Shown here piece after piece: positions 1,515-21,517 of a DNA stretch of 23,071 nucleotides. Numbering within the stretch: the stretch's first letter is position 1; each line of letters begins with the position of its first letter. The DNA lies in IMG/VR virus record IMGVR_UViG_3300010430_000471, positions 1 to 23,071 of that record; one strand, written 5' to 3'. The DNA comes from a virus. The notes under the pieces are model-generated. The model made no database searches and was not told the origin of the DNA. It worked only from the letters and a program-made list of their open reading frames with translations. A program made the position numbers and the translations under genes.

Positions 1515-1691
1515 ATGGTAGACAACGACAACAAAATGGGCGCAGAGATCCGTAAAGGGCTTGGACGAATCATGAGCCAAGTCAAAGTGGAAGGAACCAT
1601 CAAGATATTTGACAAGGATGGCAAATTGAAGAGTGAATTGGACATAGTTTCGAACACAGAACCACAGGAGCCAGAAAACAATGGAAATTAG
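1515..1691 (+). CDS. Small hypothetical protein, 58 aa
   Basis: An ATG at 1515 preceded by AGAGGG eight bases upstream opens a 58-codon frame beginning MVDNDNKMGAEIRKGLGRI and ending EPENNGN. The protein is hydrophilic and rich in charged residues, with no signal peptide or membrane segment. Its end overlaps the start of the next gene by 11 bases, and the Shine-Dalgarno of that gene (AGGAG at 1666-1670) lies inside it, suggesting coupled translation. It is the first gene after the 1462-1490 promoter. I recognise no family. Support for it being real is the ribosome binding site, the overlap and its filling of an otherwise empty gap. Confidence 0.6.
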   Translation: MVDNDNKMGAEIRKGLGRIMSQVKVEGTIKIFDKDGKLKSELDIVSNTEPQEPENNGN

Positions 1692-2082
1692 CGCAACTTT
1701 ACAAGACCAGTTCGCCAACGCAATTGATACAGCGGTCGGCACAACGGGATTTGCTCGGTTTTACACCGCTGCGTACGCGACTTTGCTCGCCAGCGCGGGC
1801 TGTAATAACCCCGCATTTGGTACAGCCGCAACCGGTGTAATCACACTTGATGTGACACCCGCCGTTGAAGACACCAGTCCTGTAGCAGCGGGTACATGTG
1901 TCCTCCTGGGGCTCTATGCAAGCACCGCTGCAACGTCTGGTGCGTTTATCGCTGCAATGGGTGTAGCGACTGGCGGTTCACCAGATGTGACGATGAGCAA
2001 CAATGTCATTGCCACAACCGACACAGTCCAAATCTCCAGTCTGACGATTACCGTACCAACTGGTACCCCTGACGCTACGTAA
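1681..2082 (+). CDS. Putative small virion protein
   Basis: This 133-residue protein is rich in Ala, Thr, Val and Gly, with alternating hydrophobic residues suggesting beta structure, and no signal peptide. The N-terminus (LQDQFANAIDTAVGTTGFARFY) followed by an Ala/Thr-rich stretch with VITLDV resembles short phage structural proteins of the pattern ANALxDAIDxAIG...ATITL that I recall from environmental phages and prophages; this is a pattern match, not a search. It has a good ribosome binding site (AGGAG ten bases before the ATG). It sits between the portal and a sulfotransferase in the accessory virion block, so a decoration or fibre-associated role is plausible. Function is not established. 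Confidence 0.6.
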   Translation: MEISATLQDQFANAIDTAVGTTGFARFYTAAYATLLASAGCNNPAFGTAATGVITLDVTPAVEDTSPVAAGTCVLLGLYASTAATSGAFIAAMGVATGGSPDVTMSNNVIATTDTVQISSLTITVPTGTPDAT

Positions 2083-2091
2083 GCTCTTGTC

Positions 2092-2922
2092 ATGGGCGAC
2101 GAGAAGAGGACTGGGGCAGTCTGGATCGCGTCGTATCCGAAGTCAGGTAACACCTGGTTACGCTGCTTATTAGAAGCATACTGGCGTAACGGTGTTCTTG
2201 ACATCAACGATATGCGCACCACGACGAGTGATGGGGGTGCGACTCTCATACAGGGGGTGTGTCCTACCCCTATCTCTCACCTTGGATTTCGGGGTGAAAT
2301 GTTGGTACGTCCAGCGGCCTTGGCAGGTCTCATCTGCAGACTCGCCCCACCTATCTGGATCAAAACACACTTCGCTAATATCCAACCTGATGGTCTGCCT
2401 CCTTGCATTCCAAAAGAATTTACGGAACGAGCCGTATATGTGGTGCGTGATCCTCGGTCTGTATTCCTCTCCTTCTCGAGATTCTTTGGCCTAACCTTAG
2501 AGGCTACGGCAGTTGCGATGACCAACAACGACTTCCTTATCGGTGGTAATGAGCACTACGCTCGGCAATTGGTGAGTGGTTGGTCGAATCACGCTCGGTC
2601 ATGGGCGGCTGAAAAGGAGTTCCCAGTTCGTGTCATAAAGTACGAGGACATAAAGGAGGATCCAGCAAACGCCCTCATCGAGGTGTTGGAGCACGTAGGT
2701 ATCAAGGTTGATGAGTCCATGGTTGAACGTGCGGTATCTGCCGCAGAGCTTAGCGCTCTTAAGAAGAAGGAAGCTGAAGATGGATTCAGGGAAAACATAG
2801 TAAAAGAGCGTGGCAACTTCTTTAATGGAGATACATCATGGGAAGACGAACTCGGGGCTAGATGGATCAATAGGATTGAAGAAGATCATGGCGAGGTTAT
2901 GAAGTTATTGGGGTATCTCTAA
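2092..2922 (+). CDS. PAPS-dependent sulfotransferase
   Basis: This 276-residue protein belongs to the Sulfotransferase_1 (PF00685) fold, which moves a sulfuryl group from PAPS to an acceptor, commonly a hydroxyl or amine of a sugar or small molecule. The 5'-phosphosulfate loop YPKSGNTWL is at residues 15-23. KTHF supplies the candidate catalytic His93. The 3'-phosphate-binding stretch YVVRDPRSVFLSF starts at 116 with Arg119 and Ser127. Near the C-terminus, KERGNFFNGDTSWEDEL fits the region of the usual RKGxxGDWKNxFT motif but is divergent. The length is typical and the gene looks intact. No strong Shine-Dalgarno is seen and the upstream stop is nine bases away, suggesting coupling. Its stop overlaps the next start (TAATG). 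The acceptor is unknown; host surface polysaccharide or a virion glycan are both possible. Confidence 0.88.
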   Translation: MGDEKRTGAVWIASYPKSGNTWLRCLLEAYWRNGVLDINDMRTTTSDGGATLIQGVCPTPISHLGFRGEMLVRPAALAGLICRLAPPIWIKTHFANIQPDGLPPCIPKEFTERAVYVVRDPRSVFLSFSRFFGLTLEATAVAMTNNDFLIGGNEHYARQLVSGWSNHARSWAAEKEFPVRVIKYEDIKEDPANALIEVLEHVGIKVDESMVERAVSAAELSALKKKEAEDGFRENIVKERGNFFNGDTSWEDELGARWINRIEEDHGEVMKLLGYL

Positions 2923-5705
2923 TGACCTGGAATATCCCTCTCTTTGACGCCACAGGGAAGATCAAAGATGCTCGTGTAGGTTCTGTTTATGCCTTCTACG
3001 CGCCAACTAAATGGGTAACGGCTGCCGCTGGCGGCAGTGGGGTTGGTACTGAGGGGGATCCGTGGACGCTGGCGCAGGCGATGGCAAATGCTGTTGCTGG
3101 CGATATTGTTCAGGTGGGCCCCGGTACTTACACCGGCAGCAATACAGACGATAACTTTGATCCATCGTGGCGTGCAGCCAATTCAGGTTCGCCAGGCAAG
3201 CCAATCATATTCTTTGCTCGATACCCGGCAGTCCGTTATGTATCTAACCGTTCACAGCTGAGTAATGGCGTCACAACGGATCGTGGCGGTTGCCCAACAT
3301 TCGGATGTGGTACTGGTGATGACTACATCTACTGGGATGGGTTCTACGTTGACGAGAACACCTCGAACTACAAAGAGGACATGGGGCCTGCAGTGCTTAA
3401 CGGCTGTACTGGCTCAGAGCTTCGCAGGTGCCTGATTAAAGGTGACGTAGCGGCTGGTGAGGGTGGATCTGATAATCACTGCTCATTCCGCATGGAGGCA
3501 AGCGATGGCGTAGCGATCAGGGACTGTGAAGCATATGACAATTATTCTGGGCTCAATGCGTATAATGGCTCGTGCGTTGTCATCTACACGACATACAACT
3601 TCGTCGTGGAGAATAACCACTTCTATAATTCGGATGGTGGCGTATTCCTGAAAGGCGATAGCGCAGTACAGGCCATTCATACAGCGACTGTCCGCAATAA
3701 CTATATCCATGATGTAGCACGGGGTATTACACCACAGCATGTAGCAGCGACCGCGGGTCCAGGTGTAGATGGTACTTACGGCGCACGTATCTACCAGAAC
3801 ATCGTTGAGGATTGCGAGTATGGCATTATTCCTCGCGGTGATACCCGGGCATGGGATCCATCGGATTGCGTAATAGCCAATAACCTAATTATCGGATCAA
3901 CGTGGGGGCTATACACGAAGCCTGGCACTCACGATGCTATGATCCATCGGAACAATCTCATTATCGATTGCACGTTTGCGCAGCAGGCTGAAGACGTTAC
4001 AGCATGGCCTAGCGGCATCGATAGTGACTACAACATGTATAGTGGGTTCACTACGTTTGGGCGCCTAAACTACACGAACTATACACTGGCAACGTGGGTA
4101 TCAACTTTTGGCGATGAAACCAACTCCGTAGACGATGATCCCGAGTTTGTCAACAAGGCAACGGGGAATTACAAGTTAGACACTGGATCTCCTGCGCTTG
4201 GTGCTGGTACTGATTACCTTAGCTTGTTGGGTGGGGATGTAGGGGCTGCAGTCAACTATGGTCCGTATGTTCTTGCTGACCAGTCGGACGAAATTGGCGT
4301 TAGGACAGATCCGAGTTACCCAGTTCCATCGTATATCCCGAACAAGTTCGTTGCGCCTTGGGCTGATGTTACAAATGCAACCTCCGATGAGGACGTTGTT
4401 AATGGAACGACCTATGCCAATGCTAATTCCGAGGGAACACCGTGTACACTGGCTGAAGCCGCTGCTAACTGTGCTGCTGGGGATCAGATACAAGTAGCTC
4501 CAGGCGTATATACTTCAGCTCAAGGTACTAGTGGTGCATGGGAAGGAGCGTTTGGCACGAACAATCCTGGATCATCGGGCAGTGAGATAGTCTTCTTTGC
4601 CAAGTTCCCAGCGGCTGATAATGTGGGTAATGAGGCATATTGGTCCGAGATGCAATCAACCGGGTCGCCAGCCTCTTGCTGGTCATTCGCAGATGACTCG
4701 TCACCTAATGAATATGTCATTATTGATGGATTCTATTTCGATCAGGCAGTTCAATTGCCAGTGGCATCAAAGGGCACTGTCGTTATGAACGGGGCCGATT
4801 ATTGTCAGATGCGTCGATGTGTTGTTGATCATCCAATCGAGTCAAGAAGTGGTGATAATTTCGACTCTGTTTGGGTGCAAGGATCTGTAGGATGCGTTGT
4901 CTCTGATAACCTATTCCGTGGCGGTCGAGGCGGGACCGATCCGGGCAATGTCTGTTGCATCAAGACTTATGCCACAACTGACTTAATTGTTGAATATAAC
5001 ACGTTTGACGATGTGGCCTGTCCGTTATGGTTCAAGGGTCCGACAACCGGACCTGGAAATCACGGAACGATCAGGTTCAATCGCATCAATGACGTTCATC
5101 GTGGCATGTCCTTTCTTTATATGGAGGAGGCCCGCGATACCAACATCTATCAGAACCTCTTTACGGGAATATCACAGCAGAACGCTATTCAGATAAGGGA
5201 TGAGGCGGCATCAACAAACGACCTTAATTTCTACAACAATACGCTTGTCGTAGAGTGTGATCTTGATTCTGAGGATATCTGGGGCATCATCAGCTTCAGG
5301 CTTGGCGGGACCAACATCACTGGCATCGAGATCTACAACAACATAATCATTGCTGATACGGGCAGCACTGAGCCGTTGGTGCAGCTCTACCAGCATTCAA
5401 CCTTCTCTGCGTTCTTTGACCAGTTTGACTACAACCTGTATTACGACGTACCAACTTCGCCTGAGTGGGGTTTCGACGCAGGATACGATACGACATTTGC
5501 CAATTGGCAAACAACGGCCAATGCAGAACTGACAGGAGCAGAGGCCAACTCGCTTTACGAAAACCCGACCTTCGATGACACATTTGACTACAAACTGACT
5601 GCCGGAGCACAGAATGCTCTGACCGCATCAGACATTGGTGGTCCAGTTGGATGCTGGATAACCGGAAATGAAGATATCGGCATCCGCGCCAACCCAAGCT
5701 ACTAA
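2922..5705 (+). CDS. Tandem beta-helix protein (fibre or spike-like)
   Basis: This 927-residue protein is predicted to be a right-handed parallel beta-helix, the fold of many tail spikes and polysaccharide-degrading enzymes. It has short strand/turn patterns with recurrent Asn (ENNHFY, ANNLIIG, YNNTLVV). It consists of two homologous halves about 459 residues apart: TLAQAMANAVAGDIVQVGPG matches TLAEAAANCAAGDQIQVAPG, PIIFFARYPA matches EIVFFAKFPA, and the halves end IGVRTDPSY and IGIRANPSY. There is no signal peptide, as expected for a virion protein. Its ATG overlaps the sulfotransferase stop, linking the two in translation. It precedes the duplicated fibre cassettes. Whether it has enzymatic activity cannot be told: I see no diagnostic catalytic motif. 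An adhesion or receptor-binding role is inferred. Confidence 0.75.
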   Translation: MTWNIPLFDATGKIKDARVGSVYAFYAPTKWVTAAAGGSGVGTEGDPWTLAQAMANAVAGDIVQVGPGTYTGSNTDDNFDPSWRAANSGSPGKPIIFFARYPAVRYVSNRSQLSNGVTTDRGGCPTFGCGTGDDYIYWDGFYVDENTSNYKEDMGPAVLNGCTGSELRRCLIKGDVAAGEGGSDNHCSFRMEASDGVAIRDCEAYDNYSGLNAYNGSCVVIYTTYNFVVENNHFYNSDGGVFLKGDSAVQAIHTATVRNNYIHDVARGITPQHVAATAGPGVDGTYGARIYQNIVEDCEYGIIPRGDTRAWDPSDCVIANNLIIGSTWGLYTKPGTHDAMIHRNNLIIDCTFAQQAEDVTAWPSGIDSDYNMYSGFTTFGRLNYTNYTLATWVSTFGDETNSVDDDPEFVNKATGNYKLDTGSPALGAGTDYLSLLGGDVGAAVNYGPYVLADQSDEIGVRTDPSYPVPSYIPNKFVAPWADVTNATSDEDVVNGTTYANANSEGTPCTLAEAAANCAAGDQIQVAPGVYTSAQGTSGAWEGAFGTNNPGSSGSEIVFFAKFPAADNVGNEAYWSEMQSTGSPASCWSFADDSSPNEYVIIDGFYFDQAVQLPVASKGTVVMNGADYCQMRRCVVDHPIESRSGDNFDSVWVQGSVGCVVSDNLFRGGRGGTDPGNVCCIKTYATTDLIVEYNTFDDVACPLWFKGPTTGPGNHGTIRFNRINDVHRGMSFLYMEEARDTNIYQNLFTGISQQNAIQIRDEAASTNDLNFYNNTLVVECDLDSEDIWGIISFRLGGTNITGIEIYNNIIIADTGSTEPLVQLYQHSTFSAFFDQFDYNLYYDVPTSPEWGFDAGYDTTFANWQTTANAELTGAEANSLYENPTFDDTFDYKLTAGAQNALTASDIGGPVGCWITGNEDIGIRANPSY
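2922..5705 (+). repeat. Internal duplication of a ~460-residue beta-helix
   Basis: The first half of this gene (about 2922-4316) and the second half (about 4317-5702) encode homologous protein segments in the same order: the TLAxA motif, the FFAxxPA motif, DGFYxD, a RRC motif, VENN/VEYN, NDV/HDV and the final IGxRxxPSY. At the DNA level the halves have largely diverged, so the duplication is old compared with a recent tandem copy. Confidence 0.75.
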
Positions 5706-5714
5706 GGAATATTG

Positions 5715-5930
5715 ATGGCTGATTTAGACGTAGATACAACCGCACCCGCGTATACAACCCGCAGACAGCAGTTTGCGGATATCGTGACATTCTATAAGGA
5801 GCGTTTGCGGGCATATCACAAATTGCGTGATCCAGACATGCGGCAAGCGTGGCGCCAGGCAGACCCGTTTCTTGCAGACCTTCTAAGGTTCGCTAGAGAA
5901 GTTGACAGGCTGGGGAGTAAAGGTTTATGA
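5715..5930 (+). CDS. Small helical protein, cassette copy A
   Basis: This 71-residue protein starts at ATG 5715, six bases after AAGGA; the in-frame TTG at 5712 is too close to the ribosome binding site to be preferred. It has an N-terminal DTTAPAYTTRR segment followed by a charged, probably helical body with AWRQADPFLADLLRF. It is a clear paralogue of the 70-residue protein at 7555-7767, sharing DTTAPAYTTRR and AWRQADPFL plus much between. It is the first gene of a three-gene unit occurring twice. Its stop overlaps the next start (ATGA). No domain family is recognised. The constant linkage to a downstream beta-helix gene suggests an adaptor or chaperone for it, which is inference only. Confidence 0.75.
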   Translation: MADLDVDTTAPAYTTRRQQFADIVTFYKERLRAYHKLRDPDMRQAWRQADPFLADLLRFAREVDRLGSKGL

Positions 5931-6316
5931 TAAAGAATCGAAATTTCATGTCCTTTGACCCTGCCGACATCCCTCTCGCTGATGAGTACGTAAGATGTAA
6001 TTTCAGTCGCAAACTCCCAACAGATATTGGCGGTGGCGTGATGCGCGGTACTCGACTATTTCCTGGAGATGATACACCTCGTACCTTTCGTCAGTGCAAT
6101 TTAACAAATTGCGAGCCGCCCCCGGGGTCAACTGTCATTGAGAGCAATACTCACATTGTTGATCCCAACTCTTTTAATAGGGCTGACATTGTTAGGGTCA
6201 ATGGGTTAGAGGTTGGTCGTCGCAATTTTACCGATAATATCCACTATGGAAGGTATAACCCCAGTACCGAATCCTATGATGATAATCCGGCTCCTGTGGT
6301 GACGCCAAATGACTGA
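5927..6316 (+). CDS. Cys-containing hypothetical protein, cassette copy A
   Basis: This 129-residue protein starts with an ATG overlapping the preceding stop (ATGA). Its core is ADEYVRCNFSRK, DIGGGVMRGTRLFPGDDTPR and QCNLTNCEPPPGS. The paralogue at 7764-8156 keeps the order CNF, DIGGGVMR, RLFPGDDTPRTF and CNLTNCEPPPGS. The paired CN motifs suggest a small beta-structured fold, possibly a few solenoid-like turns. It has no signal peptide, so the conserved cysteines would sit in the cytoplasm or in the virion. I do not recognise a named family. Its fixed position between a small helical protein and a beta-helix protein in both cassettes suggests a shared assembly role. Confidence 0.75.
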   Translation: MIKNRNFMSFDPADIPLADEYVRCNFSRKLPTDIGGGVMRGTRLFPGDDTPRTFRQCNLTNCEPPPGSTVIESNTHIVDPNSFNRADIVRVNGLEVGRRNFTDNIHYGRYNPSTESYDDNPAPVVTPND

Positions 6317-7511
6317 CTTTTATGTAGACAATGCGGCGGGGTCAGATGCCAATAGTGGGTCTTCCGAGGGTTCAGCCCAGCATAACGGGACAGCGGCTAC
6401 TAGATCGACAAATGTCTATACGTTGGATGGCTCACCAGACTTATCTGGGATAACAGATGGTGAGGACACAATTGCAATTGTCGGCGAGACCAGTGGTCAG
6501 GGTGTAATTGGTGACACGATCTTTTTGATTACTGCACATGATGACGGGGCTGATACAGTAACAGTAAGCCCAACCCCGACAGGGGGAACGTCAGGACTCA
6601 CCTGGGCTATTGGTGGGGGCTTCGCAACGTTCAATAAGGTGGTGAACAACGCAGCCCTTGCTGGCGACGATGTCTACGTCAAGGGTGGTACCATTTACAC
6701 TGAGGCGTCAATCACCACCGCATTGGCGGGTTCCAGCACTGCCCCAATCAGGTTTTTTGGGTATACGTCAGTTATCACAGACAATGGGCAAGTCGTATTC
6801 ACCCCAGCGACTGGAACTGGTTTCACTCACTCACTCACGGGAGCTGCGAATTTAATATTCAACAACATGAGATGGGATAATTGCTCTAATACAGGGTTCA
6901 ATGGCGGCAATAGCGACAACATACACTTTCACAATTGCGGATGGAACGGCAACTCTGGGCGAGGTGTGTTTGGGGACAACACCTATATGTTCGCAAGGTG
7001 CGAAAGTGTGGACAATACTTCACAGGGAACGGACGTTGACGCCAACGCTCAATTTCATGGGTGTATAAATGGTAATAACGGTATCGGTTACTGGACCCTT
7101 GGTGGAGGCACTTACTACAGATGTGTGGGTTATGGCGCTGACAGTACCCAAAGAATTTTACAAGATACGTCGGCGGGGGTCAATATTCTTGGGTGTACGT
7201 TTGATAGTCAGCAACAGGCCCGAGGTCTCCAGGTCGATGATCATTGCACGATAGTAGATACTATACTATATGATTCCGACACTTGGGGTGTAGAGTTTTT
7301 CTCTACTGCCCAGCCCATTGGATTGACTTTCTTTAATCACAATTTGGTTTACGGTAATACTACAGGAGTTTATGAAATCACCAATCGTTGGATTGGACAG
7401 CGTGACGTAGCCCAACCACCAGGATTTACTGACGAGGCCGGCGAAGATTACACCTTGGCGGATACTAGTGCAGCCGTTGATGTAGGTATGACTCCTGGGA
7501 ATCTCCCTTAA
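6309..7511 (+). CDS. Beta-helix fibre-like protein, cassette copy A
   Basis: This 400-residue protein begins with FYVDNAAGSDANSGSSEG, a common start of phage and secreted right-handed beta-helix proteins, and has a regular series of Asn/Gly-rich short strands (FNNMRWDN, HFHNCGWNGN). Residues 1 to about 108 and the last 80 or so are close to its copy at 8153-9367, while the centre differs strongly. The end, near VDVGMTPG, resembles the C-terminal cap of such helices. The start ATG overlaps the upstream stop region by eight bases. It probably forms a surface-exposed fibre or spike with a conserved mount and a variable face. Carbohydrate binding or cleavage is possible, but no catalytic residues are evident. 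Confidence 0.75.
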   Translation: MTDFYVDNAAGSDANSGSSEGSAQHNGTAATRSTNVYTLDGSPDLSGITDGEDTIAIVGETSGQGVIGDTIFLITAHDDGADTVTVSPTPTGGTSGLTWAIGGGFATFNKVVNNAALAGDDVYVKGGTIYTEASITTALAGSSTAPIRFFGYTSVITDNGQVVFTPATGTGFTHSLTGAANLIFNNMRWDNCSNTGFNGGNSDNIHFHNCGWNGNSGRGVFGDNTYMFARCESVDNTSQGTDVDANAQFHGCINGNNGIGYWTLGGGTYYRCVGYGADSTQRILQDTSAGVNILGCTFDSQQQARGLQVDDHCTIVDTILYDSDTWGVEFFSTAQPIGLTFFNHNLVYGNTTGVYEITNRWIGQRDVAQPPGFTDEAGEDYTLADTSAAVDVGMTPGNLP

Positions 7512-7554: not shown

Positions 7555-7767
7555 ATGGCTAACACAATAGTAGATACGACAGCACCAGCATATACGACAC
7601 GTAGATCCCAATTTACGGACATTGTATCATTTTACCGTCCGCATCTCAGGAAATATCATTTGCTGCGTGATCCGGTTATGCAGGAAGCGTGGAGACAGGC
7701 CGATCCATTCCTTGACGACTTACTTAGGTTTTCTGATGCAGTTAGCCGGGGATCGAAGAACTTATGA
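7555..7767 (+). CDS. Small helical protein, cassette copy B
   Basis: This 70-residue paralogue of the 5715-5930 product shares DTTAPAYTTRR, QFxDIVxFY, the LRDPxM segment and AWRQADPFL. It starts at ATG 7555 with AAGG eight bases upstream. It follows a 43-base spacer after copy A's beta-helix gene; the spacer has no convincing promoter or terminator. The stop overlaps the next start (ATGA). The protein is soluble, charged and predicted helical, with no recognised family. Strong protein conservation with synonymous DNA change argues that both copies are under selection for function. Confidence 0.75.
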   Translation: MANTIVDTTAPAYTTRRSQFTDIVSFYRPHLRKYHLLRDPVMQEAWRQADPFLDDLLRFSDAVSRGSKNL

Positions 7768-8156
7768 TTAAGGACAAAAACTTCTCAAACGTTCCAGTTG
7801 GGGATATTCCTGTTGATCTGGAATATGTGGATTGTAACTTTACGCGCTCTACACCAATAGATATTGGTGGTGGCGTGATGCGATCACATAGGCTGTTTCC
7901 TGGAGATGACACTCCAAGGACGTTTACACACTGCAATTTAACTAACTGTGAGCCGCCGCCCGGATCAACTTTGATTAATTGTAATACTAATGTGTTTAAT
8001 GGCCGACTGGTTGTAGACGTGGAGCTTGTACTCGTTGATAGTGTAGAGGTTGGTAGGAATGACGTATCAGACAGGGTTCTCTACGGTAGACTAAACCCGA
8101 CAACTCTGGTGTATGAAGATTTACCTACGCCAGAAGTCCATAGGAATAAGGTATGA
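7764..8156 (+). CDS. Cys-containing hypothetical protein, cassette copy B
   Basis: This 130-residue paralogue of the 5927-6316 product keeps CNF, DIGGGVMR, RLFPGDDTPRTF and CNLTNCEPPPGS in the same order. Here the segment after CEPPPGS reads TLINCNTNVF, adding another CN pair. The N- and C-terminal thirds vary more than the centre. The ATG overlaps the preceding stop and its own stop overlaps the next ATG, so all three cassette genes are probably translated in sequence from one message. No named family is recognised and no export signal is seen. Confidence 0.75.
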   Translation: MIKDKNFSNVPVGDIPVDLEYVDCNFTRSTPIDIGGGVMRSHRLFPGDDTPRTFTHCNLTNCEPPPGSTLINCNTNVFNGRLVVDVELVLVDSVEVGRNDVSDRVLYGRLNPTTLVYEDLPTPEVHRNKV

Positions 8157-9367
8157 CCGACTTTTACGTAGACAATGCGAACGGCTCTGATGCCAATAGC
8201 GGATCTTCAGAAGATCACACAGCCCCACTCTCGGGCACCGCCGCTACACGTTCAACTAATGTCTATACGTTGGACGGGTCCCCCGATCTATCCGGAATCG
8301 TAGACAATGCGGACACGATCGCAATTGTGGGGGAGACTAGTGGGCAGGGTAGTGAGGGTACAACCGTATTTTTGATTACCGCGCATGACGATGGCGCTGA
8401 TACAGTAACAGTGAGTCCCACACCTACCGGTGGAACGTCGGGGTTAACATGGGCTATTGGTGGGGCATTTGCCACGCTGGAGATGGTACATGACAACGCT
8501 GTCCTCGCAGGTGATACTGCTTATATCCAATCAGGCACAGTGTACGATGAAAATGTAAGTACCAGTGTGGCGGGAGCTGTTAATAATCCCATTGCATTTA
8601 TTGGGTACACGACAGTCAACACAGACGAGGGCAAATTTACATTAACCCCAACATCAGGGCAGGGCATTACACATCTACTTAACGGGATAGGCTACCTCAT
8701 CTACAAGAACATGACCATAGATGGTGCAACCACTGGTTTTGATGGTAATAATATGGATACGTGCCATTTCTACAATTGTGATTTCCTTAACAATAGCGGT
8801 ATAGGCGTTACCGGTGATAATAACTACATCTTTGTTAATTGCACAGCTAGGGGCAGTGGCAATAAAGGTTTTGATATAGATCAGGACGGTGTTTACGTAG
8901 GCTGTATTTCTGGTAGTAATGGGCACAATAACTTTTTTGGGCTCGCCAGCTACTATTATAAGAACGTGGCTTACAACCCGCCTGTATCTGCGGATAATTT
9001 CTCAGATACATCCACCGAGATATTCATAGGTAATATAGCCGATGGTGATAATAAAGTCGGATCACAAAACCTAACCGTTGGGACACAAGTGCGCATCGTT
9101 GCTGATAACATCATCTATGATGCGGGTCAATGGGGGGTAGAGTGGAGCGGTGCTGTTGTATATCCTGGCGGGGGTTTTATTGGGTACAATTTAGTAGACT
9201 CAAATACTAGCGGGGATTATGAGTCTCCGAACGGGTGGGAAGGGGTAGTAGGATACAAGGATGTTGCTATGACCCCTCTATTTATTGATGAGGCAGGAGA
9301 TGACTATAGAGCTGCTACAGGTAGTCCCGCTATCAACACAGGTGTTAAGCCTGGCGGAATTACCTAG
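8153..9367 (+). CDS. Beta-helix fibre-like protein, cassette copy B
   Basis: This 404-residue protein begins FYVDNANGSDANSGSSED. Residues 1 to about 110 are nearly the same as in copy A, including NVYTLDGSPDLSGI and TVSPTPTGGTSGLTWAIGG, although many codons differ. The middle (about 115-320) is divergent and Asn/Gly rich (YNCDFLNNSG, VNCTARGSG). The C-terminal part realigns around WGVEW and DEAGDDY, and ends SPAINTGVKPGG. The stop TAG overlaps a GTG start for the following ORF. The pattern is that of a fibre tip with a conserved attachment domain and an altered recognition face; ligand and enzymatic activity are unknown. Confidence 0.75.
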   Translation: MTDFYVDNANGSDANSGSSEDHTAPLSGTAATRSTNVYTLDGSPDLSGIVDNADTIAIVGETSGQGSEGTTVFLITAHDDGADTVTVSPTPTGGTSGLTWAIGGAFATLEMVHDNAVLAGDTAYIQSGTVYDENVSTSVAGAVNNPIAFIGYTTVNTDEGKFTLTPTSGQGITHLLNGIGYLIYKNMTIDGATTGFDGNNMDTCHFYNCDFLNNSGIGVTGDNNYIFVNCTARGSGNKGFDIDQDGVYVGCISGSNGHNNFFGLASYYYKNVAYNPPVSADNFSDTSTEIFIGNIADGDNKVGSQNLTVGTQVRIVADNIIYDAGQWGVEWSGAVVYPGGGFIGYNLVDSNTSGDYESPNGWEGVVGYKDVAMTPLFIDEAGDDYRAATGSPAINTGVKPGGIT

Positions 9368-9681
9368 TGGTTGATGTCTCTTACATTGGCGCATGGTCAA
9401 AGAGAGCTGCTAGCAACAGTATCGGTGCCTATGGTTATGATAGGCCCTCCCACAATTGCATAGGGGCTTATCCTGTACTTGGCCTTGGCGATATAGGGGC
9501 TTACCAAACTGATTTCGCTCCGTTGGCTGTGCTAGATGCTAGTGGTGCGCCAACAATGGCAGTTAGCACTGCCTCTGGTTCGGCATTACTGCCCAATGTT
9601 ATAATTACTGACGTTAACACTACCGAGTCTTGGGATGATGGTGATACGGGCCTCGTTATAACAGGTACGGGATTCCTCTAA
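9367..9681 (+). CDS. Composite 104-aa ORF linking beta-helix and repeat protein
   Basis: A GTG start overlapping the previous stop (TAGTG) opens a frame with three recognisable parts. Residues 1-53 or so carry repeated IGAY motifs (SIGAYGYD, CIGAYP, GDIGAYQ) like the end of many beta-helix proteins. Next comes a single copy, DASGAPTMAVSTASGSALL, of the repeat found about 38 times in the following gene. The end, NVIITDV to LVITGTGF, looks like the first part of an IPT/TIG Ig-like domain, but the frame stops after GFL. It therefore looks like a remnant or shuffled junction piece, although the start and stop overlaps suggest that it is translated. Another initiation choice or a recombination scar is possible. 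Confidence 0.6.
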   Translation: MVDVSYIGAWSKRAASNSIGAYGYDRPSHNCIGAYPVLGLGDIGAYQTDFAPLAVLDASGAPTMAVSTASGSALLPNVIITDVNTTESWDDGDTGLVITGTGFL

Positions 9682-9686
9682 TGGCT
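9670..9686 (+). repeat. 17-bp direct repeat at gene junction, left copy
   Basis: GGATTCCTCTAATGGCT spans the end of the 104-residue ORF (coding GFL, stop TAA) and the overlapping ATG of the 1586-residue gene. The identical 17 bases recur at 14430-14446, at the other end of that gene, in the same relation to a stop/start overlap. Confidence 0.85.
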
Positions 9687-12600
9687 ATTGGCTTTCTAAG
9701 CGCTGCTAGTGATACACCTGAAACAGAAGTAAGCTCTGTAACGTGGGATCACACCAAGACAGCGGGAGCAAGTCGCTACCTGATCGTTCATGTTGCTTAC
9801 GGTGGTGGTGGCGTCGATTCAGTTACGTATGGCGGCCAGACACTAACGGCGATTGGCACGGAAGTCACAAACGGCGGTCACGCCGCGCAAATGTTCTACC
9901 TCGCAGAAGCGGGAGTTGCAGCCGCAACAGGATCACCGCCAGCAGTAACAGTTAATTTCACTGGCACTGGCGAGTTTGTTTGCTGTCATTCGTCACTGTA
10001 CTCCGGCGTTGATTCAATCAGCAGTGTCGGTACGAATACCGGCAACAGCACAACAAGCACCGTTGACGTTACCAGCATGGCCTCGGATTCGTGGGGTGTG
10101 GCAGTTACTAAAAACGCACGCGCCGCCACTTACACAGCTGGAACAAACGACACGATCACCGGCCAGTCAGAGATTGAGTCTGATAGTGGTGTAGCACTTT
10201 ACACCGACACGGTGGCCGCTGGTTCAGCAACAATTAGTTGTTCACGAACCGGGCCTAATCGTGCGTTTGCCATGCAGGGCGCGGAACTCGTAGCGGCGGT
10301 ATTAGCTAAGACCGCTGATGGCGATGCAGACATGGCGTCACCAACTGCTAGTGGTCTTGCAACCTTAAAGCCCATCGCCGACGGTACACCGTCGACTACA
10401 GTAGCCACAGCCTCCGGTGCAGCAACGATATTCAAGCGCGCCACATCAGCAGCAACAATGACTGCAATTGTTGCAGCGGGTGTTGCAGGGATAGTTAAGG
10501 ATGCTAGTGGCGATGCCACAATGGAGAGCCCCACCGCGTCTGGTGTAGTTACGCAGTTTAAGCGTGCTAATGGCACTCCCAATATGGACTCGCCTACTGC
10601 GTCTGGCGTAGTTACTATCATCAAGAGGGGTAGTGGTACTCCATCGACTGACCTGATTACAGCGTCTGGCGTGGCGTCTCTCGGTGTACTGCCCGCATCC
10701 GGTGACCCCAATATGGCGTCACCGACCGCCTCGGGTGTGGTTACACAAATTAAACGGGCTTCAGCAGCAGGCGATTCCTCTGGCATCACGTTCTTCTGGA
10801 CTTGCGAATCGACAACCTTCGATGCCGATGATTATTCGGTGGGTGACGATACACCAACGGTAACTGCTTCGGCATCGATCAGCTCGACACAGGCTAGGGC
10901 TGGTACAAACAGCGTCAAGGTACCTCTGGTTGGCTCGTATTATTGGTTCACGGAGGCCGATGATATAGGTGTCGTGGCAGAGGGGTCGATTGGGTTCTCA
11001 GTCTACGGCACCGCAGACCTAGCAGACCTACAGGGGATCTGGTGTGGTTTATTTGACGGTGACACGCCCAATACTCGCATAAGAGTCTCAATGCCTACGG
11101 CCGATGGCAACGTAGCCTTCGACATCGGTGAGAATGGAGAGGGCAACACTCAAGTTATAACGACTGGCGCTCCAGTATCTGCTGGGGCTTGGTTTGGTAT
11201 TGTTTTCCGTTGGCATGAATCTAACCAAGATATGCGGTTGGAGGTTTATAACGCCGCTGGTACGCTTGTTGATTCTGCCGAAAACCTGTCTGTGGGAGCA
11301 ACAAGCTGGCCTACAGATACCCCAATTGATCGCCTCTTTGTCGGTGACATTGGTGGTGCAGACAACGCGGACTTCTACGTCGACAATGTCTTCGCGTCAA
11401 GCAACTACAACGAGCCGCTCCAAGACTTCCTTGGAATTGCCAGCATCTCCGAGTATGGTACTGGTGTTGTCGCCACGCCAATAACCGCCAGTGGTGTAGC
11501 AACAATCCTCGCTAAGGATGCTAGTGGCACTCCAAGTATGGAGAGCCCAACAGCTAGTGGCGTAGCTAGGTTCGCCCATGATTGCACCGGTACTCCCTCA
11601 CTCGATCCTATCACAGCCACAGGTGTTGCTACTCTAGGAGCACTCACAGCTTCTGGTAACCCAACGTTAGCACCAATTGTAGTGGGTGGTGAGGGTAATA
11701 GTGACGACTTCACCAATACCAATGGCACTGCGCTTGCTACACATGATTCCAATTGGGGATCGATGGGTGGTGTCGGTACATCGAATGACTATCCAGTTGG
11801 CAACTTTGAGATTCAATCAAATGTTAGCCAAGCAACTGCCGCGTTTACCAAGGCAGGGGCTATTTATACTGCCAGTCAGGACGTTGACTTTTGCGAGGTG
11901 GAAGTCCAGCCAGCTGACTACCTCAATAACAGTGTCGCAGTCTGCATCCAAGCTACATCAACTCGTCAAGGTTATAATGCGCGGCTTACCTCCTTAAGTG
12001 GTGACACTTTTGCTGCCATAAACCTGCAAGAAGATAACGGAACTAGTGATACATTTAGAGACACAGCCACAATAAGCTGGGATAGAACCGGATCGCCAAT
12101 CAAGATTAGGATTGAGTATATTGGCGGTAATGTCGTTGTCACGGTTGATGATGTCGAGGAAATAAGTTGGGCTGAAGCAACCCCGCTAACTGGCGGTTAT
12201 CCGGGCTTCCGACTTGAGTCCAACGTTGATGATCTTGGCGGGTTTGATAACTGGACTGATGGTGGTGCAGGGATTGCGCGGGCTATCCAGATTTACAAAC
12301 CCAGTGGTACCCCCTCACTAGATGTCATTACTGCGGCTGGTGTTGCTACTCTTGGTGCCCTCGATGCTAATGGCACTCCCTCCATGGGCGTCATTACAGC
12401 TTCTGGTATTGCACGCTTTGCGCATGACGCCGATGGCACACCTTCCCTAGATGTCATTACCGCTTCTGGTGTGGCAACTCTAGGAGCGTTACCTGCTTCT
12501 GGTGATGTCACATTAGACCCGATTACTGCTAGTGGTACTGCACGATTTGCCCATGATGCGGATGGAGCACCAACCCTAGATGCCATTACAGCTTCTGGTA

Positions 12601-14441
12601 TAGCTAGGTTTGCTCATGACGCTAGCGGCACGCCTACGATGGATGCTATCACAGCCTCTGGCGTAGCATCGTTATCGGGCTTAGTAACGGCTTCTGGTGA
12701 TCCATTATTAGGGGTTATCACCGCTTCTGGTGCGGTCACACAGACCCAGCTAGCCTCTGGTACTCCTGCGATGGCCAGCCCGTCAGCAAGCGGACTCGTC
12801 AATCTATTTGGTGGCACTGAGGGTACACCAACACTAGAGGTTATTACGGCTAGTGGTGTAGCAACGCTTGGAGCGCGAACAGCTAGTGGCAATCCCTCGA
12901 TAGATCCGATTACAGCCACGGGCGTAGCGGGTCTCTTACATGATGCTAGTGGTACTCCTACGATGGACGCCATTACTGCATCGGGTATAGCAGCTCTAGA
13001 GGGACAGCTAACGGCTACAGGTGCACCATCTACAGCCTTAATAACTGCTGCGGGCGTTGTCAAGCAGATACAGCTTGCATCGGGTACGCCATCACTCGAT
13101 CCTATCACTGCTGTAGGCATAGCAATAAAAGAGGCACTATCGGCTAGTGGCACCCCATCAATAGCTAGTCCTACAGCTGTGGGTGTAGTCAACCTAGCGC
13201 CTAAGGTTTGGTTAAACACCACACAGACTATCTCCGGCGCAACCGAGATGACGGTCACTGCATGGAATCTTGCGGGTACGTCAATTACCTTCACTGATCC
13301 CTCTGGGCCACCTATTGGCTCACTCTACCTGGGTGTCGAAAATCGTAACCTAGGTGGAGGTGATAGTAATACTGGTTGGATAGCTGTTACAGTTGTGGCC
13401 TCCAGACAAGCTAGCGGTACCCCTACAATGGAGGCTGTTACCGCAGCGGGTACAGCAACGTTAGTAGGGTTAGTAACCGCTTCAGGTACACCTACGTTAG
13501 ATACAATAACCGCTACGGGTAATGTTACACAGACACAACTTGCCTCTGGTGCACCTAGTTTAGATGTAATAACAGCCTCGGGTGTTGCTACACTTGGAGC
13601 GTTACCCGCGAGTGGTGCACCTTCATTAGATGCCATTACTGCGTCAGGTGTAGCACGATTTGCTCACGATGTCTCAGGTACTCCTTCGACGGACGTAATC
13701 ACCGCTTCAGGTGTCGCCAGCCTAGAGGGGTTAGTAACAGCTACTGGTAGTCCCTCGCTAGAGGTTATCACTGCCTCAGGGCAAGTAACGCAGCGGCAAC
13801 TCGCTAGTGGTACACCCACCCTTGATGTGATCACTGCTAGTGGTACTGTTGACAAACAGGGGTTGGTAACTGCTTCCGGTACTCCTGCAGTTGAGGTTAT
13901 TGCGGCGTCAGGTCAGATTACACAGACACAGCTCCTATCAGGTGCCCCATCACTTGAGGCGGCAACTGCTGCAGGTACTGCGCGTATAGTTAAGGCAGCT
14001 CAGGGTACCCCGTCCATAGAGGTTATTGAGGCAAGTGGTGTAGCTGACCTACTTGCTCTCCCAGCTTTTGGTACGCCCGCATTAGATGCAATAACGGCTT
14101 CTGGTATTGCTGGGTTCCGTAGCACCGCAAGTGGTACTCCAGTATTAGACCTAATAACTACATTAGGTGTTGTTGTACGCACTTTGGAGGCTTCTGGTAC
14201 TCCTACGTTAGACGTAATAACCGCTGCGGGCCTAGTTGATATACCAACCTTCTTTGAAGCCCACATCGAGTTTGAGTGCGCTACATACACCATAGACATC
14301 GCGATGATGGCATACACCATCGATATAGACCTTACTACCGAGGGGAAATACACCATCACTGTAGACGCCCCATTACATCCATGGGTAGATGGTCCCAATG
14401 AATCTGCCTTCTCTGCGGGCTTTACTAAAGGATTCCTCTAA
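9681..14441 (+). CDS. Giant repeat virion/adhesin-like protein, 1586 aa
   Basis: This 1586-residue, Ala/Ser/Thr/Gly-rich protein has no signal peptide. Residues 1 to about 207 form a separate N-terminal domain (SRYLIVHVAYGGGG near 30). About 38 units of 21-23 residues with core ASGTPxxDxITASGVA follow, at about 208-363, 584-665, 869-1173 and 1243-1520. Three non-repeat segments break the array: two lectin-like, LamG/concanavalin-type beta domains (about 364-583 with DFYVDNVFAS, and 666-865 ending GGFDNWTDG) and a short one (1173-1243). The C-terminal 65 residues contain three YTIxI/V strands and end GFL. It lies among beta-helix fibre genes, so a fibre, decoration or adhesion role is inferred; the repeat itself has no known function to me. 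Both ends carry the same 17-bp junction sequence. Confidence 0.8.
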   Translation: MAIGFLSAASDTPETEVSSVTWDHTKTAGASRYLIVHVAYGGGGVDSVTYGGQTLTAIGTEVTNGGHAAQMFYLAEAGVAAATGSPPAVTVNFTGTGEFVCCHSSLYSGVDSISSVGTNTGNSTTSTVDVTSMASDSWGVAVTKNARAATYTAGTNDTITGQSEIESDSGVALYTDTVAAGSATISCSRTGPNRAFAMQGAELVAAVLAKTADGDADMASPTASGLATLKPIADGTPSTTVATASGAATIFKRATSAATMTAIVAAGVAGIVKDASGDATMESPTASGVVTQFKRANGTPNMDSPTASGVVTIIKRGSGTPSTDLITASGVASLGVLPASGDPNMASPTASGVVTQIKRASAAGDSSGITFFWTCESTTFDADDYSVGDDTPTVTASASISSTQARAGTNSVKVPLVGSYYWFTEADDIGVVAEGSIGFSVYGTADLADLQGIWCGLFDGDTPNTRIRVSMPTADGNVAFDIGENGEGNTQVITTGAPVSAGAWFGIVFRWHESNQDMRLEVYNAAGTLVDSAENLSVGATSWPTDTPIDRLFVGDIGGADNADFYVDNVFASSNYNEPLQDFLGIASISEYGTGVVATPITASGVATILAKDASGTPSMESPTASGVARFAHDCTGTPSLDPITATGVATLGALTASGNPTLAPIVVGGEGNSDDFTNTNGTALATHDSNWGSMGGVGTSNDYPVGNFEIQSNVSQATAAFTKAGAIYTASQDVDFCEVEVQPADYLNNSVAVCIQATSTRQGYNARLTSLSGDTFAAINLQEDNGTSDTFRDTATISWDRTGSPIKIRIEYIGGNVVVTVDDVEEISWAEATPLTGGYPGFRLESNVDDLGGFDNWTDGGAGIARAIQIYKPSGTPSLDVITAAGVATLGALDANGTPSMGVITASGIARFAHDADGTPSLDVITASGVATLGALPASGDVTLDPITASGTARFAHDADGAPTLDAITASGIARFAHDASGTPTMDAITASGVASLSGLVTASGDPLLGVITASGAVTQTQLASGTPAMASPSASGLVNLFGGTEGTPTLEVITASGVATLGARTASGNPSIDPITATGVAGLLHDASGTPTMDAITASGIAALEGQLTATGAPSTALITAAGVVKQIQLASGTPSLDPITAVGIAIKEALSASGTPSIASPTAVGVVNLAPKVWLNTTQTISGATEMTVTAWNLAGTSITFTDPSGPPIGSLYLGVENRNLGGGDSNTGWIAVTVVASRQASGTPTMEAVTAAGTATLVGLVTASGTPTLDTITATGNVTQTQLASGAPSLDVITASGVATLGALPASGAPSLDAITASGVARFAHDVSGTPSTDVITASGVASLEGLVTATGSPSLEVITASGQVTQRQLASGTPTLDVITASGTVDKQGLVTASGTPAVEVIAASGQITQTQLLSGAPSLEAATAAGTARIVKAAQGTPSIEVIEASGVADLLALPAFGTPALDAITASGIAGFRSTASGTPVLDLITTLGVVVRTLEASGTPTLDVITAAGLVDIPTFFEAHIEFECATYTIDIAMMAYTIDIDLTTEGKYTITVDAPLHPWVDGPNESAFSAGFTKGFL
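10306..14238 (+). repeat. Array of ~38 repeats (63-69 bp) in the giant gene
   Basis: The consensus at protein level is ASGTPxxDxITASGVA plus a 5-7 residue tail. Tails fall into a few classes: RFAHD, ATLGALx, TQxQL, SLxGLVT and xIKR. Counting by eye gives about 38 units in four blocks. DNA spelling differs strongly between units with the same peptide, so the array is clear in protein but weak as exact DNA repeats. Confidence 0.85.
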
Positions 14442-18435: not shown

Positions 18436-20019
18436 ATGCCTAAACGTACCATGTTGTCGGTCCAAGCGACACCTGACGTAGCAAACATAAGGACGGCAAC
18501 ACTCTTCGATGAAGAGCACACTGTTGTCCCATGTGTTGCCCTCGTTGAGGGTGTCCTCTGGCCCGCTAATGCGCCAGCCCCAGAGTTGGCGCTCGCCGAA
18601 GAATTCGGTCGATTCCCAGATAGCTGGAATGGGCGACCAGTAGTATTCGATCACCCCAAAGTTAATGGTATGGCTGTTAGCGCCAGTCACCCAGAGGTTA
18701 TGGAAGAAGTAGCCTTCGGGTCCATCTTCAATACCGAGTTGGACGATGTTAAGCTCAGGATGGAACTTTGGATTAACAACGAACGTGTCACTACCATGAG
18801 TGATGATGTAAAGGGCACGGTAGATCGTCTCAAGGATGGCGATGAGGTCGTAGAGGTATCTACGGGTCTCTTTGTGATGTCAGAAGAGGTTGAAGGTAAA
18901 TTCGAAGGAGAGGACTTCTCCGCAATTTGGAGAAACGTCGTCCCTGATCACCTTGCAGTTCTTCCAGAGGGTGTAACAGGTGCCTGCAGTGTTGAGGATG
19001 GCTGTGGTGCACCCCGAACAAATAAGGAGTTTACTCCAGTCATGAACGCAGCCAGGATTGAGTTCAATACCAGTGATGGCACCAGCGATGGTACCAGCGA
19101 TGACACCGAGAAGAAAGGTACATTCGAGAAGTTCGTCGAGTTGGCCGGTAATCTTTTCGCCTTCCGCAATAGCGCTAAGGATATGTCGGATAACGATGTA
19201 CGCACAGCCTTGAGTTCTGCGCTGTCTACCCAGGAGTCATATTTCTGGATTATGGCAGTATTCGACTCAGGCGACGGTAGCGGTACTGTGGTGTTTGAGA
19301 GTTTCGACACCGGCAAGTTGTTCGAGCAGGAATTCACGATCTCCGAGCAGAAGGTAACACTCGGGGCTGATAGGGTCGAAGTAAGACCCGTAACCGAATT
19401 TGTCCCAGTGACAACCGAGATGGAAGGTGACGATGTCACTGACAACTCGGAAGGCGCTGAGACGGATGCAAACCAACTCCAGGAGAATAGTAACATGGAC
19501 AAAGACCAGCTCGTAAAGGAACTGATCGACAATGCGTCGTCCCAGTTTACCGAAGACGATCGGGCATGGCTGAGCACACTCGAAGAGTCGCAGCTGGCCA
19601 AATTGTCGCCGATTGAAAATGAGGATGGCGGTGAAGGTGGTGATGGTGACGATGAAGTTACCGGCGCTATTGGCACCGTTATTGGTGCTGATGACTCGGA
19701 GGACGAAATCGTCGAGCCGGTATCTACCGAAGACTACATTGCAGGAGCGCCCGACGAAGTACAGGCAGTCCTCAATTCTGGTCTGCGAATGCATCGTGAA
19801 CGTAAGAAGGCACTTGTTAGTGGCCTCTTGGCGAACTCACGGTGTACATTCACCAACGCCCAACTGAATGCTAAGCCTGTCGAAGAACTCGAGCAGATAG
19901 CATCGTTGGTTTCTGACGTCACATTTGAGGGATCCGCGCTTGTACGGGCTAACTCCGATGATGATGACGCGCCTGCACCGATCCAGCTGTTCGATCTGAA
20001 CAAGTCGGCGTCGGCTTAA
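18436..20019 (+). CDS. Prohead protease/scaffold fusion (DUF2213-like)
   Basis: This 527-residue protein has an N-terminal protease-like region (about 20-190). FDHP at 72-74 (His73), VEVSTGLF with Ser142, and PDHLAVLP with His172 match the pattern of DUF2213/Mu-type prohead proteases, which process capsid and scaffold proteins. Residues 200-350 include a short TSDGTSDGTSDD repeat and a less defined region. The C-terminal third is acidic and helical like an internal scaffold. An AGGAG nine bases before ATG 19495 would start the scaffold part alone. The gene has AGAGG eight bases upstream, follows the second promoter and precedes the decoration and capsid genes. The catalytic assignment is inferred from motifs. 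Confidence 0.8.
   Translation: MPKRTMLSVQATPDVANIRTATLFDEEHTVVPCVALVEGVLWPANAPAPELALAEEFGRFPDSWNGRPVVFDHPKVNGMAVSASHPEVMEEVAFGSIFNTELDDVKLRMELWINNERVTTMSDDVKGTVDRLKDGDEVVEVSTGLFVMSEEVEGKFEGEDFSAIWRNVVPDHLAVLPEGVTGACSVEDGCGAPRTNKEFTPVMNAARIEFNTSDGTSDGTSDDTEKKGTFEKFVELAGNLFAFRNSAKDMSDNDVRTALSSALSTQESYFWIMAVFDSGDGSGTVVFESFDTGKLFEQEFTISEQKVTLGADRVEVRPVTEFVPVTTEMEGDDVTDNSEGAETDANQLQENSNMDKDQLVKELIDNASSQFTEDDRAWLSTLEESQLAKLSPIENEDGGEGGDGDDEVTGAIGTVIGADDSEDEIVEPVSTEDYIAGAPDEVQAVLNSGLRMHRERKKALVSGLLANSRCTFTNAQLNAKPVEELEQIASLVSDVTFEGSALVRANSDDDDAPAPIQLFDLNKSASA
19495..20019 (+). CDS. Nested scaffold protein (internal start)
   Basis: In the protease/scaffold frame, codon 354 is ATG preceded by CCAGGAGAATAGTAAC, so a good Shine-Dalgarno lies nine bases upstream. 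Initiation here would give a 174-residue protein starting MDKDQLVKELIDNASSQF, with DDRAWLSTLEESQLAKL next, an acidic linker rich in Asp/Glu/Gly, and a helical end. The MDKxxLVxxLI...FTEDDRxWLxxLxE pattern is familiar to me as the start of separate scaffold segments in related phages. Production of a scaffold from an internal start is known in lambda (Nu3 within C). It is predicted, not proven; the full fusion could instead be cut by the protease. Confidence 0.55.
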   Translation: MDKDQLVKELIDNASSQFTEDDRAWLSTLEESQLAKLSPIENEDGGEGGDGDDEVTGAIGTVIGADDSEDEIVEPVSTEDYIAGAPDEVQAVLNSGLRMHRERKKALVSGLLANSRCTFTNAQLNAKPVEELEQIASLVSDVTFEGSALVRANSDDDDAPAPIQLFDLNKSASA

Positions 20020-20048: not shown

Positions 20049-20480
20049 ATGGCAATTAAGAAAGTCTTAGTACTTGGTGAGGATCTCTGTGTACGCAGGG
20101 AAGGCATCGCTGCTGGTGCAATCTCGCCGGGGCATCTCATCGAAGGTCCAGATACGGATCTTGTTGTACATGCCACAGCTGCTGAAAACGCACTGCCGAA
20201 GTTTGCAATCGAGAACGAGGTAGTTGGCGGTGGTCTCGGTACTGACTATGCCGACAACGACACGGTCCTTTACGCTGTTTGTCCACCAGGTACGATTGTT
20301 TACGCGATCGCTGATGGTACAGGCTTGACAGCAGAAGACCTTGTCGAGTCCAACGGTGATGGTACCTTCCAGGTACTGTCAACGATCGCATCAACGAGCC
20401 AGGATCAGTTAAGGCGGCTTGTTGGTAAGGCAATCGACACAGCCGCGGCGGATGCACGTTTCCGTCTCGAGATCTGGTAA
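20049..20480 (+). CDS. Head decoration-like protein
   Basis: This 143-residue protein lies directly before the major capsid gene, the usual place of head decoration or stabilising proteins. It has beta-rich features (KKVLVLGEDLCVRREG, LVVHATAAENALPKF, GTFQVLSTIASTS) ending with VGKAIDTAAADARFRLEIW. This resembles short beta-tulip decoration proteins only in style and position. It has no signal peptide. It has AGAGGAG upstream and a palindrome overlapping it. The call is mostly contextual. Confidence 0.65.
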   Translation: MAIKKVLVLGEDLCVRREGIAAGAISPGHLIEGPDTDLVVHATAAENALPKFAIENEVVGGGLGTDYADNDTVLYAVCPPGTIVYAIADGTGLTAEDLVESNGDGTFQVLSTIASTSQDQLRRLVGKAIDTAAADARFRLEIW

Positions 20481-20509: not shown

Positions 20510-21517
20510 ATGAAACCAGGTGTACAAATTGACACTATCTCTGCAGGGGGTGGATCGTTAGTTGGTTCCGGAGACGTCGCAATGCGTCTTTTGGAGAGTA
20601 ACTTCGATATCGGCGCCCTTCGCACGAATGATGTCCTCAGGAAAGACGAATGGAAGCAGTATGACCAAGCGTTGGTCGAGGTAGCCACGAAACGGTTACC
20701 GCTTGTTTCCTTCTTGGTAGGTCAAGGGCTTACGTACAATATCTCGGATGGTCTTGGTACGACCATACTCGAGTGGGAAGACGTAAGTGATATGGAGCCG
20801 GCCGAAGTCTCGATGGCTGGTGTGACGCGCGGTGAGCAAGATACTCTCGAGTTCAGCCTCAAGAGCATGCCGCTGCCGATCATCCATAAGGACTTCACTC
20901 TCAACATCCGTAAATTGCATGCGTCACGTACCACGGGCCAGCCCCTGGATACGGCGCAAGCGCAAGTCGCGGGTCGTTTAGTTGCCGAAGCTACCGAAAG
21001 CATGGTTGTCGCCGGTCACGCTACAAAGGTCGGCACGAGTGTAATCTATGGTCTCAATACCGTTCCTAACAGCTCTGCTGTTACGATGTCCGGTACGCAT
21101 ACGTGGGGTGTAGATTCCACCGCTGCTGAGATCATCGTTGACTGCCTAGCAGCTATCGCAGCGCTGGAAACGGATCACATGTATGGGCCATACGCGCTGG
21201 TTGTTGATTACGCTACGTGGAACTTCCTGCAGAGTGATTACGAGGTGACCACGAATACTGGTCGCACTATCCTCGAACGTATCCTGCAGATTGTGGGCAT
21301 CTCCACGGTTATCCCATCGCGTGATTGCCCAGCTGAGACAGCGTTTATGTTCCAGCTGACCGCTGACGTCATCGATGAGGTTATTGGCATGCAGCCAACG
21401 ACCGTACAATGGGAAACCCAGGGTGGAATGCAGTTGCACTTCAAGGTCATGTCGATCATGATCCCACGTGTACGCTGGACACAAACCCTGCAATCGGGTA
21501 TCGCGGTTCTCTCGTAA
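20510..21517 (+). CDS. Major capsid protein (HK97 fold, encapsulin-like)
   Basis: This 335-residue protein matches the encapsulin-like phage capsid pattern: LRTNDVLRKDEW near 37, GLGTTILEWEDVSDMEPAEV around 80-100, a SMAGVTRGEQD segment, then MPLPIIHKDFTLNIR and a helical GRLVAEATESMVVAG stretch. I recall this order of motifs from linocin/encapsulin-like proteins and PF09950 capsid proteins. It would form the icosahedral shell. AGGAG lies seven bases before ATG 20510. It follows the protease/scaffold and decoration genes, as in many siphoviruses and myoviruses, and is followed by a strong terminator. No separate delta-domain cleavage site can be assigned; the N-terminus before residue 33 may be trimmed. 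Confidence 0.88.
   Translation: MKPGVQIDTISAGGGSLVGSGDVAMRLLESNFDIGALRTNDVLRKDEWKQYDQALVEVATKRLPLVSFLVGQGLTYNISDGLGTTILEWEDVSDMEPAEVSMAGVTRGEQDTLEFSLKSMPLPIIHKDFTLNIRKLHASRTTGQPLDTAQAQVAGRLVAEATESMVVAGHATKVGTSVIYGLNTVPNSSAVTMSGTHTWGVDSTAAEIIVDCLAAIAALETDHMYGPYALVVDYATWNFLQSDYEVTTNTGRTILERILQIVGISTVIPSRDCPAETAFMFQLTADVIDEVIGMQPTTVQWETQGGMQLHFKVMSIMIPRVRWTQTLQSGIAVLS

Follow-up and report, generated by a model that had tools for sequence, protein, structure and literature searches.

The sulfotransferase gene analysed here lies in a 23-kb window (23,071 nucleotides, positions 1 to 23,071 of an IMG/VR virus record), which was the scope for gene-order and family assignments. Pfam and PHROG assignments place a portal gene at its start (8-1465) and a virion block around the sulfotransferase. 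Between the portal and head-maturation protease genes are those for the sulfotransferase, an endolysin, and several proteins of the beta-helix or repeat type; the decoration and capsid genes follow the protease. The initial annotation had placed the enzyme in a virion/adhesion block, which agrees with this gene order and with the conserved position of the gene in relatives. The features are:

1515..1691, + strand: conserved small ORF of 58 aa that opens the cassette (similar ORFs in relatives)
1681..2082, + strand: 133-aa beta-sandwich virion protein, the fixed partner of the sulfotransferase (phrog_3758, model, fold match)
2092..2922, + strand: PAPS-dependent sulfotransferase, 276 aa (Sulfotransfer_1, 1.4e-17; model; Foldseek)
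2134..2157, + strand: 5'-phosphosulfate loop YPKSGNTW, residues 15-22 (42-sequence alignment)
2362..2370, + strand: catalytic KTH, residues 91-93 (K91 and H93 invariant, 42/42)
2446..2472, + strand: 3'-phosphate site RDPRSVFLS, R119 to S127 (42-sequence alignment)
2818..2829, + strand: FFNG, residues 243-246, in the place of the C-terminal RxGxxGxWK motif (Arg replaced by Asn)
2922..5705, + strand: right-handed beta-helix protein, 927 aa, a variable partner (NosD 3.7e-11, DUF1565 2.5e-4)
18436-20019: head-maturation protease
20049-20480: decoration protein
20510-21517: major capsid protein, with connector genes also in this region

The closest portal belongs to a Brevundimonas phage (37% identity), where the portal and the next large gene are separated by a single small endonuclease gene of opposite strand. 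Compared with that phage, the 17-kb adhesion/lysis block thus seems to have been inserted. ORFs of 51-65 aa occupy the same place as the 58-aa ORF in the relatives L002, L004, L005, L007, L008, L009, and L018; a PHROG search with the 58-aa ORF gave no match.

The ORF at 2092-2922 is open and complete. Its product matched the Pfam family Sulfotransfer_1 (PF00685) over residues 10-273 with 64.4 bits, compared to a curated cut-off of 22, and it also matched sulfotransferases of solved structure at the sequence level, namely Teg14/Teg12 (1.3e-17 for Teg14) and SULT1. An AlphaFold model from 42 aligned sequences reached a pLDDT of 94.4 and a pTM of 0.92. The best Foldseek matches of this model were PAP-bound sulfotransferases such as Teg12 with PAP (1.2e-12) and SULT1A1, with a probability of 1.00 and a TM of about 0.6. 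The motifs on which the initial annotation of a complete PAPS-type sulfotransferase was based, YPKSGNTW, KTHF (residues 91-94) and RDPRSVFLSF (residues 119-128), are all present, and together with the family and structure matches they confirm this assignment. In the phosphosulfate loop, S14, Y15, P16, S18, G19, N20, and T21 are invariant and K17 is retained in 40 of 42 sequences; R119, P121, and S127 of the 3'-phosphate site are invariant in all 42. By analogy to SULTs, His93 is the expected catalytic base. With a confident model and K17, K91, H93, R119, and S127 invariant or nearly so, the PAPS site is undisrupted as had been presumed; the PAPS core appears intact and the protein is predicted to be capable of sulfuryl transfer. 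The C-terminal region reads FFNG-DTSW, where FF is invariant and the Arg occurs in 12 of the 42 sequences. As judged from this alignment, the RxGxxGxWK motif is degenerate in the window's enzyme and most of its kin and does not represent a fixed feature of the clade.

Two IMG/VR scans yielded about 80 viral sulfotransferase loci, the closest being L004 (66% identity) and L002, L005, and L006 (55-57%). Comparison with L004 revealed purifying selection on the gene (pN 0.21, pS 0.77). Such a number of relatives, the closest of them at this level of identity, together with purifying selection, excludes a chance ORF, and we concluded that 2092-2922 encodes a real PAPS-type sulfotransferase. An initial scan of genomes by narrow patterns returned nothing, and tblastn against the 50,697 phage records of INPHARED returned no match for three diverged sulfotransferases and no relative of the 133-aa or the beta-helix protein. 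Three of the contigs, L031, L033, and L028, carry two sulfotransferases of the phage lineage each, arranged in tandem in L031 and L033. In L009, an ORF upstream of the main gene (6858-7445) resembles a sulfotransferase by eye (PHSGTRSL ... RDPLAVSLSW) and has no Pfam match.

The 133-aa protein encoded immediately upstream matched phrog_3758, a virion structural protein, in the PHROG search (E 1.2e-4). It was modelled as a helix and a beta-sandwich (pLDDT 88), and the sole significant fold match in the PDB was 9rkv_A (E 1.9e-4, TM 0.58). This chain belongs to the tail-fibre model of phage 7-7-1 (PMC12796354) and, judged by its length, may be the garland protein gp014 of that study, which is a guess. 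A PDB sequence search with the profile of the 133-aa protein returned nothing. Its fold also resembles small uncharacterised proteins of other phages, and the wider fold is also present in phages that yielded no such sulfotransferase. Using a profile of the family, every detected member, including the distant ones in L034 and L017, immediately precedes a sulfotransferase gene, and a scan started from the 133-aa protein recovered 10 contigs, all of which carry one (10/10). Since the scan patterns were derived from sulfotransferase-linked members and could miss unlinked copies, this evidence is strong but not unbiased; within the window's clade, the linkage appears to be fixed. No Tyr is invariant in the family, hence no protein-sulfation site is evident, and the few invariant Ser/Thr residues (T72, S120, and T124) may be structural. 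Six upstream neighbours of phage sulfotransferases matched the Gp80 fibre I family (PF23140). The window's 133-aa protein was rejected as a Gp80 podophage fibre I, as it had no Pfam match, PF23140 included, and hhalign against the Gp80 cluster gave a probability of 3.7.

On the downstream side, the beta-helix gene begins within the stop codon of the sulfotransferase gene (...CTCTAATGACC...), resulting in a 1-nt overlap at 2922. The overlap, taken in the initial annotation as translational coupling of both genes, is real. However, by our own count overlaps occur at 13 of the window's roughly 29 gene junctions, so that a 1-nt overlap alone is nothing special for this pair. In L002, the sulfotransferase gene overlaps its downstream gene by 4 nt, and the encoded protein has the N-terminus MTWNIPxF in common with the window's beta-helix protein, while the rest is not shared. 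Among some ten relatives that share the upstream gene, L002 alone has a downstream protein of this kind, and the N-terminus turned up in no third contig. Other close relatives have unrelated large or small proteins at this position, and those tested gave no match to a beta-helix family. Co-occurrence of sulfotransferase and beta-helix genes in relatives was therefore not borne out, and the beta-helix protein was rejected as a constant partner. Of the suggested linkage to a fibre gene, the part that held is that to the small fibre-like protein upstream. The beta-helix protein itself looks internally duplicated by eye (residues near 30-115 versus 485-570), with repeat stretches of the type PWTLAQA/PCTLAEA ... 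VGPGTYT/VAPGVYT.

Of the 52 dereplicated phage sulfotransferases, about 34 (own count) directly adjoin a gene recognised as encoding a head, neck or fibre protein. Upstream virion neighbours were phrog_3758, Gp80 fibre and P22-type coat proteins; the downstream one was a phrog_2941/SU10-type adaptor. In other clades, a P22-type coat gene and an SU10-type adaptor gene flank the sulfotransferase gene, or Gp80-type fibre genes precede it. In the dereplicated set, the gene shares the strand of the preceding gene in 48/52 and of the following gene in 46/50 cases, mostly within 15 nt. No glycosyltransferase was found among the neighbour genes of the dereplicated set. In two related phages, L010 (6863-7213) and L018 (10816-11172), a Cys-rich protein of 116-118 aa (CGECTACC) is encoded with a 4-nt overlap at the sulfotransferase stop codon.

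Viral and bacterial sulfotransferases, the latter 26-38% identical, were separated with few exceptions in a first tree. A mixture-model tree separated 38 viral sequences plus the bacterial L092 from 24 bacterial ones with an SH-aLRT of 96.7. Since this tree came from a fast procedure with no bootstrapping, and the window's sulfotransferase had served as the query for collecting the viral sequences, it shows a distinct lineage and is not evidence of its origin. By this tree, the related phage enzymes form a virus-only branch outside the sampled bacterial sulfotransferases, L092 excepted. The nearest bacterial genes adjoin porin/alanine-racemase or asparagine-synthase-type peptide clusters, and no glycosyltransferase occurs among the families listed beside them. 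An origin from host surface-polysaccharide loci, as had been considered initially, is thus not supported, with the viral enzymes falling outside the bacterial ones and the listed bacterial neighbours not being glycan genes. Bacterial-type sulfotransferases in lasso-peptide-like surroundings were found in L157, in L054, which is an IMG/VR record, and in bacterial loci, e.g. L088 and L145. Pooled over such loci, the nearby genes encode asparagine synthase, HPr-kinase-C, GATase, PqqD, and transglutaminase.

Some of the IMG/VR phages appear to carry genes for making and for using PAPS side by side. In L039, the gene for a 125-aa APS kinase (PF01583, 1.7e-21) overlaps the sulfotransferase start by 11 nt; the kinase is shorter than cellular enzymes and has kept the P-loop, DGD, and PYExPxNPD motifs. 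A scan started with this type of kinase led to L172, where a compact APS kinase gene overlaps that of a sulfotransferase of a different family by 26 nt, and to further contigs with sulfotransferase-family genes within two genes of a compact kinase (two in L174, one each in L175, L176, and L179, and weakly in L180). This arrangement, seen in about six contigs, suggests phage cassettes that would both produce and use PAPS. A clear APS kinase was present in one of 50 full sulfotransferase contigs searched, many of which are fragments, and none was recognised in the 23-kb window. The T4-like kinases of L185-L187, L189-L191, L193, and L194 matched the APS-kinase query weakly and form a separate group, with no sulfotransferase recognised within three genes. 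A stretch of L195 (OQ572406.1, Pseudomonas phage Y4, UNVERIFIED) looks cellular despite being a phage record and contains a sensor kinase, glycosyltransferase-like ORFs, a full-length APS kinase, and a sulfotransferase-like ORF.

Taken together, we propose, with a probability of about 0.5, that the sulfotransferase acts late in infection on a component of the virion or its fibres. An active enzyme of the cytosolic type, stemming from a phage-specific lineage whose genes go along with those for head, neck, and fibre proteins, would be expressed late along with the virion genes and would transfer sulfate from PAPS to an acceptor. PAPS would normally be host-derived, and some relatives may supply it by their own compact APS kinase. 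The likeliest acceptor would be a component of the phage particle, either the fibre-like protein encoded upstream or one of the neck or tail proteins encoded nearby, with side chains or an attached glycan as sites. The negative charge added by sulfate may affect assembly, stability or adsorption. A virion acceptor is favoured by the fixed linkage to a fibre-like protein and by the position in virion operons across phage types, and the exchange of downstream adhesins beside a lasting sulfotransferase/133-aa pair speaks for a target linked to what stays constant. Several points argue against such an acceptor. The neighbours in other clades are coat or adaptor genes, and no single conserved virion substrate is apparent; the 133-aa family offers no invariant Tyr, its wider fold is present in phages that yielded no such sulfotransferase, and the C-terminal Arg motif of the enzyme is degenerate. 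In addition, a late-operon position fits sulfation of the host surface equally well. A broader notion, that tailed phages sulfate their own particles by a phage-only sulfotransferase lineage encoded near fibre, head or neck genes, some with their own PAPS supply, is tentative, and we would sooner bet against it than for it. If true, compact phage cysC genes would serve sulfation and not sulfur assimilation.

The main alternative is that, late in infection, the enzyme adds sulfate to LPS or to a glycan of the host surface, by which released progeny would be kept from sticking to debris or competing phages would be excluded. We consider this rather unlikely, though worth serious attention. It is in line with the adhesin-rich surroundings of the gene, with the sulfotransferases that modify bacterial LPS, e.g. 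LpsS of S. meliloti (PMC12445080), and with the probably cellular record L195, which joins an APS kinase and a sulfotransferase with glycosyltransferases. However, the gene is retained while adjoining adhesins are swapped, glycosyltransferases occur neither beside the phage genes nor among the families listed for their bacterial kin, and the lineage is not derived from within the sampled host enzymes. The more specific idea of the initial annotation, that the enzyme and the beta-helix fibre share one glycan as their target, is in line with the overlaps of 1 nt in the window and 4 nt in L002 as well as with the common MTWNIPxF N-terminus; as a single one of some ten relatives sharing the cassette keeps this partner and overlaps are common in the operon, we regard it as very improbable.

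A role as cargo or auxiliary metabolic gene, directed at a small molecule or sulfur metabolism, appears improbable. Viral sulfotransferases (PMC8290583) and phage cysC (PMC10914622) have been catalogued in this category, and the nearest bacterial sulfotransferases reside in clusters resembling those for peptide natural products, but the fixed location among virion genes in diverged phages, the fixed partner, and the virus-only lineage speak against such a role. Sulfation of DNA bases merits hardly any weight: phage systems for base modification that include sulfotransferases have reportedly been described (Iyer 2013, cited in PMC10829341), yet no DNA-modification gene was recognised beside the sulfotransferase in the window, and the gene is located in the virion operon and not in a replication module.

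Among characterised enzymes, the glycopeptide sulfotransferases Teg12/Teg14 and StaL (PF00685) are the most similar, Teg12/Teg14 being the best relatives of solved structure by both sequence and fold. They share the WIASYPKxGNTWxRC start and the core motifs with the window's enzyme at about 22% identity over the fold alignment. In contrast, they act on antibiotics and are encoded in biosynthetic clusters instead of a phage virion operon, and the C-terminal Arg motif of the window's enzyme is degenerate. The viral sulfotransferases that PMC10580990 and PMC8290583 count among auxiliary metabolic genes are likewise phage-encoded, and their function was described as unclear in 2023 (PMC10580990). 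The OM43 viral enzyme is a Sulfotransfer_3, unlike that of the window, and neither a fixed virion partner nor an APS kinase appears to be mentioned for these listed genes. Mycobacteriophage enzymes reported to glycosylate virions or capsids (cited in PMC11256854) provide a precedent for modification of virions by phage enzymes. A limited search of the open-access literature returned no report on sulfation of prokaryotic virions and no paper on a virion-linked phage sulfotransferase lineage or on APS kinase/sulfotransferase pairing, although one may exist. With a phage-only lineage and a fixed virion partner, sulfotransferase function in phages becomes a testable question, namely whether sulfate is added to the phage's own particles or to the host surface. 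Phage cysC has been interpreted as part of assimilatory sulfate reduction and filed under sulfur cycling (PMC10914622); the compact APS kinases found here, in contrast, adjoin sulfotransferases, which points to sulfation and offers another reading of such genes.

Elsewhere in the window, a three-gene cassette is tandemly duplicated at 5712-7511 and 7555-9367. The copies encode proteins of 72/70 and 129/130 aa and a beta-helix protein of 400/404 aa, and their DNA is 73-83% identical in the best stretches. The region 9681-14441 encodes a 1586-aa protein with many degenerate repeats of the ASGTPxLDxITASGVA type, and the same kind of repeat occurs in L002 (7481-8737) after its sulfotransferase cassette.
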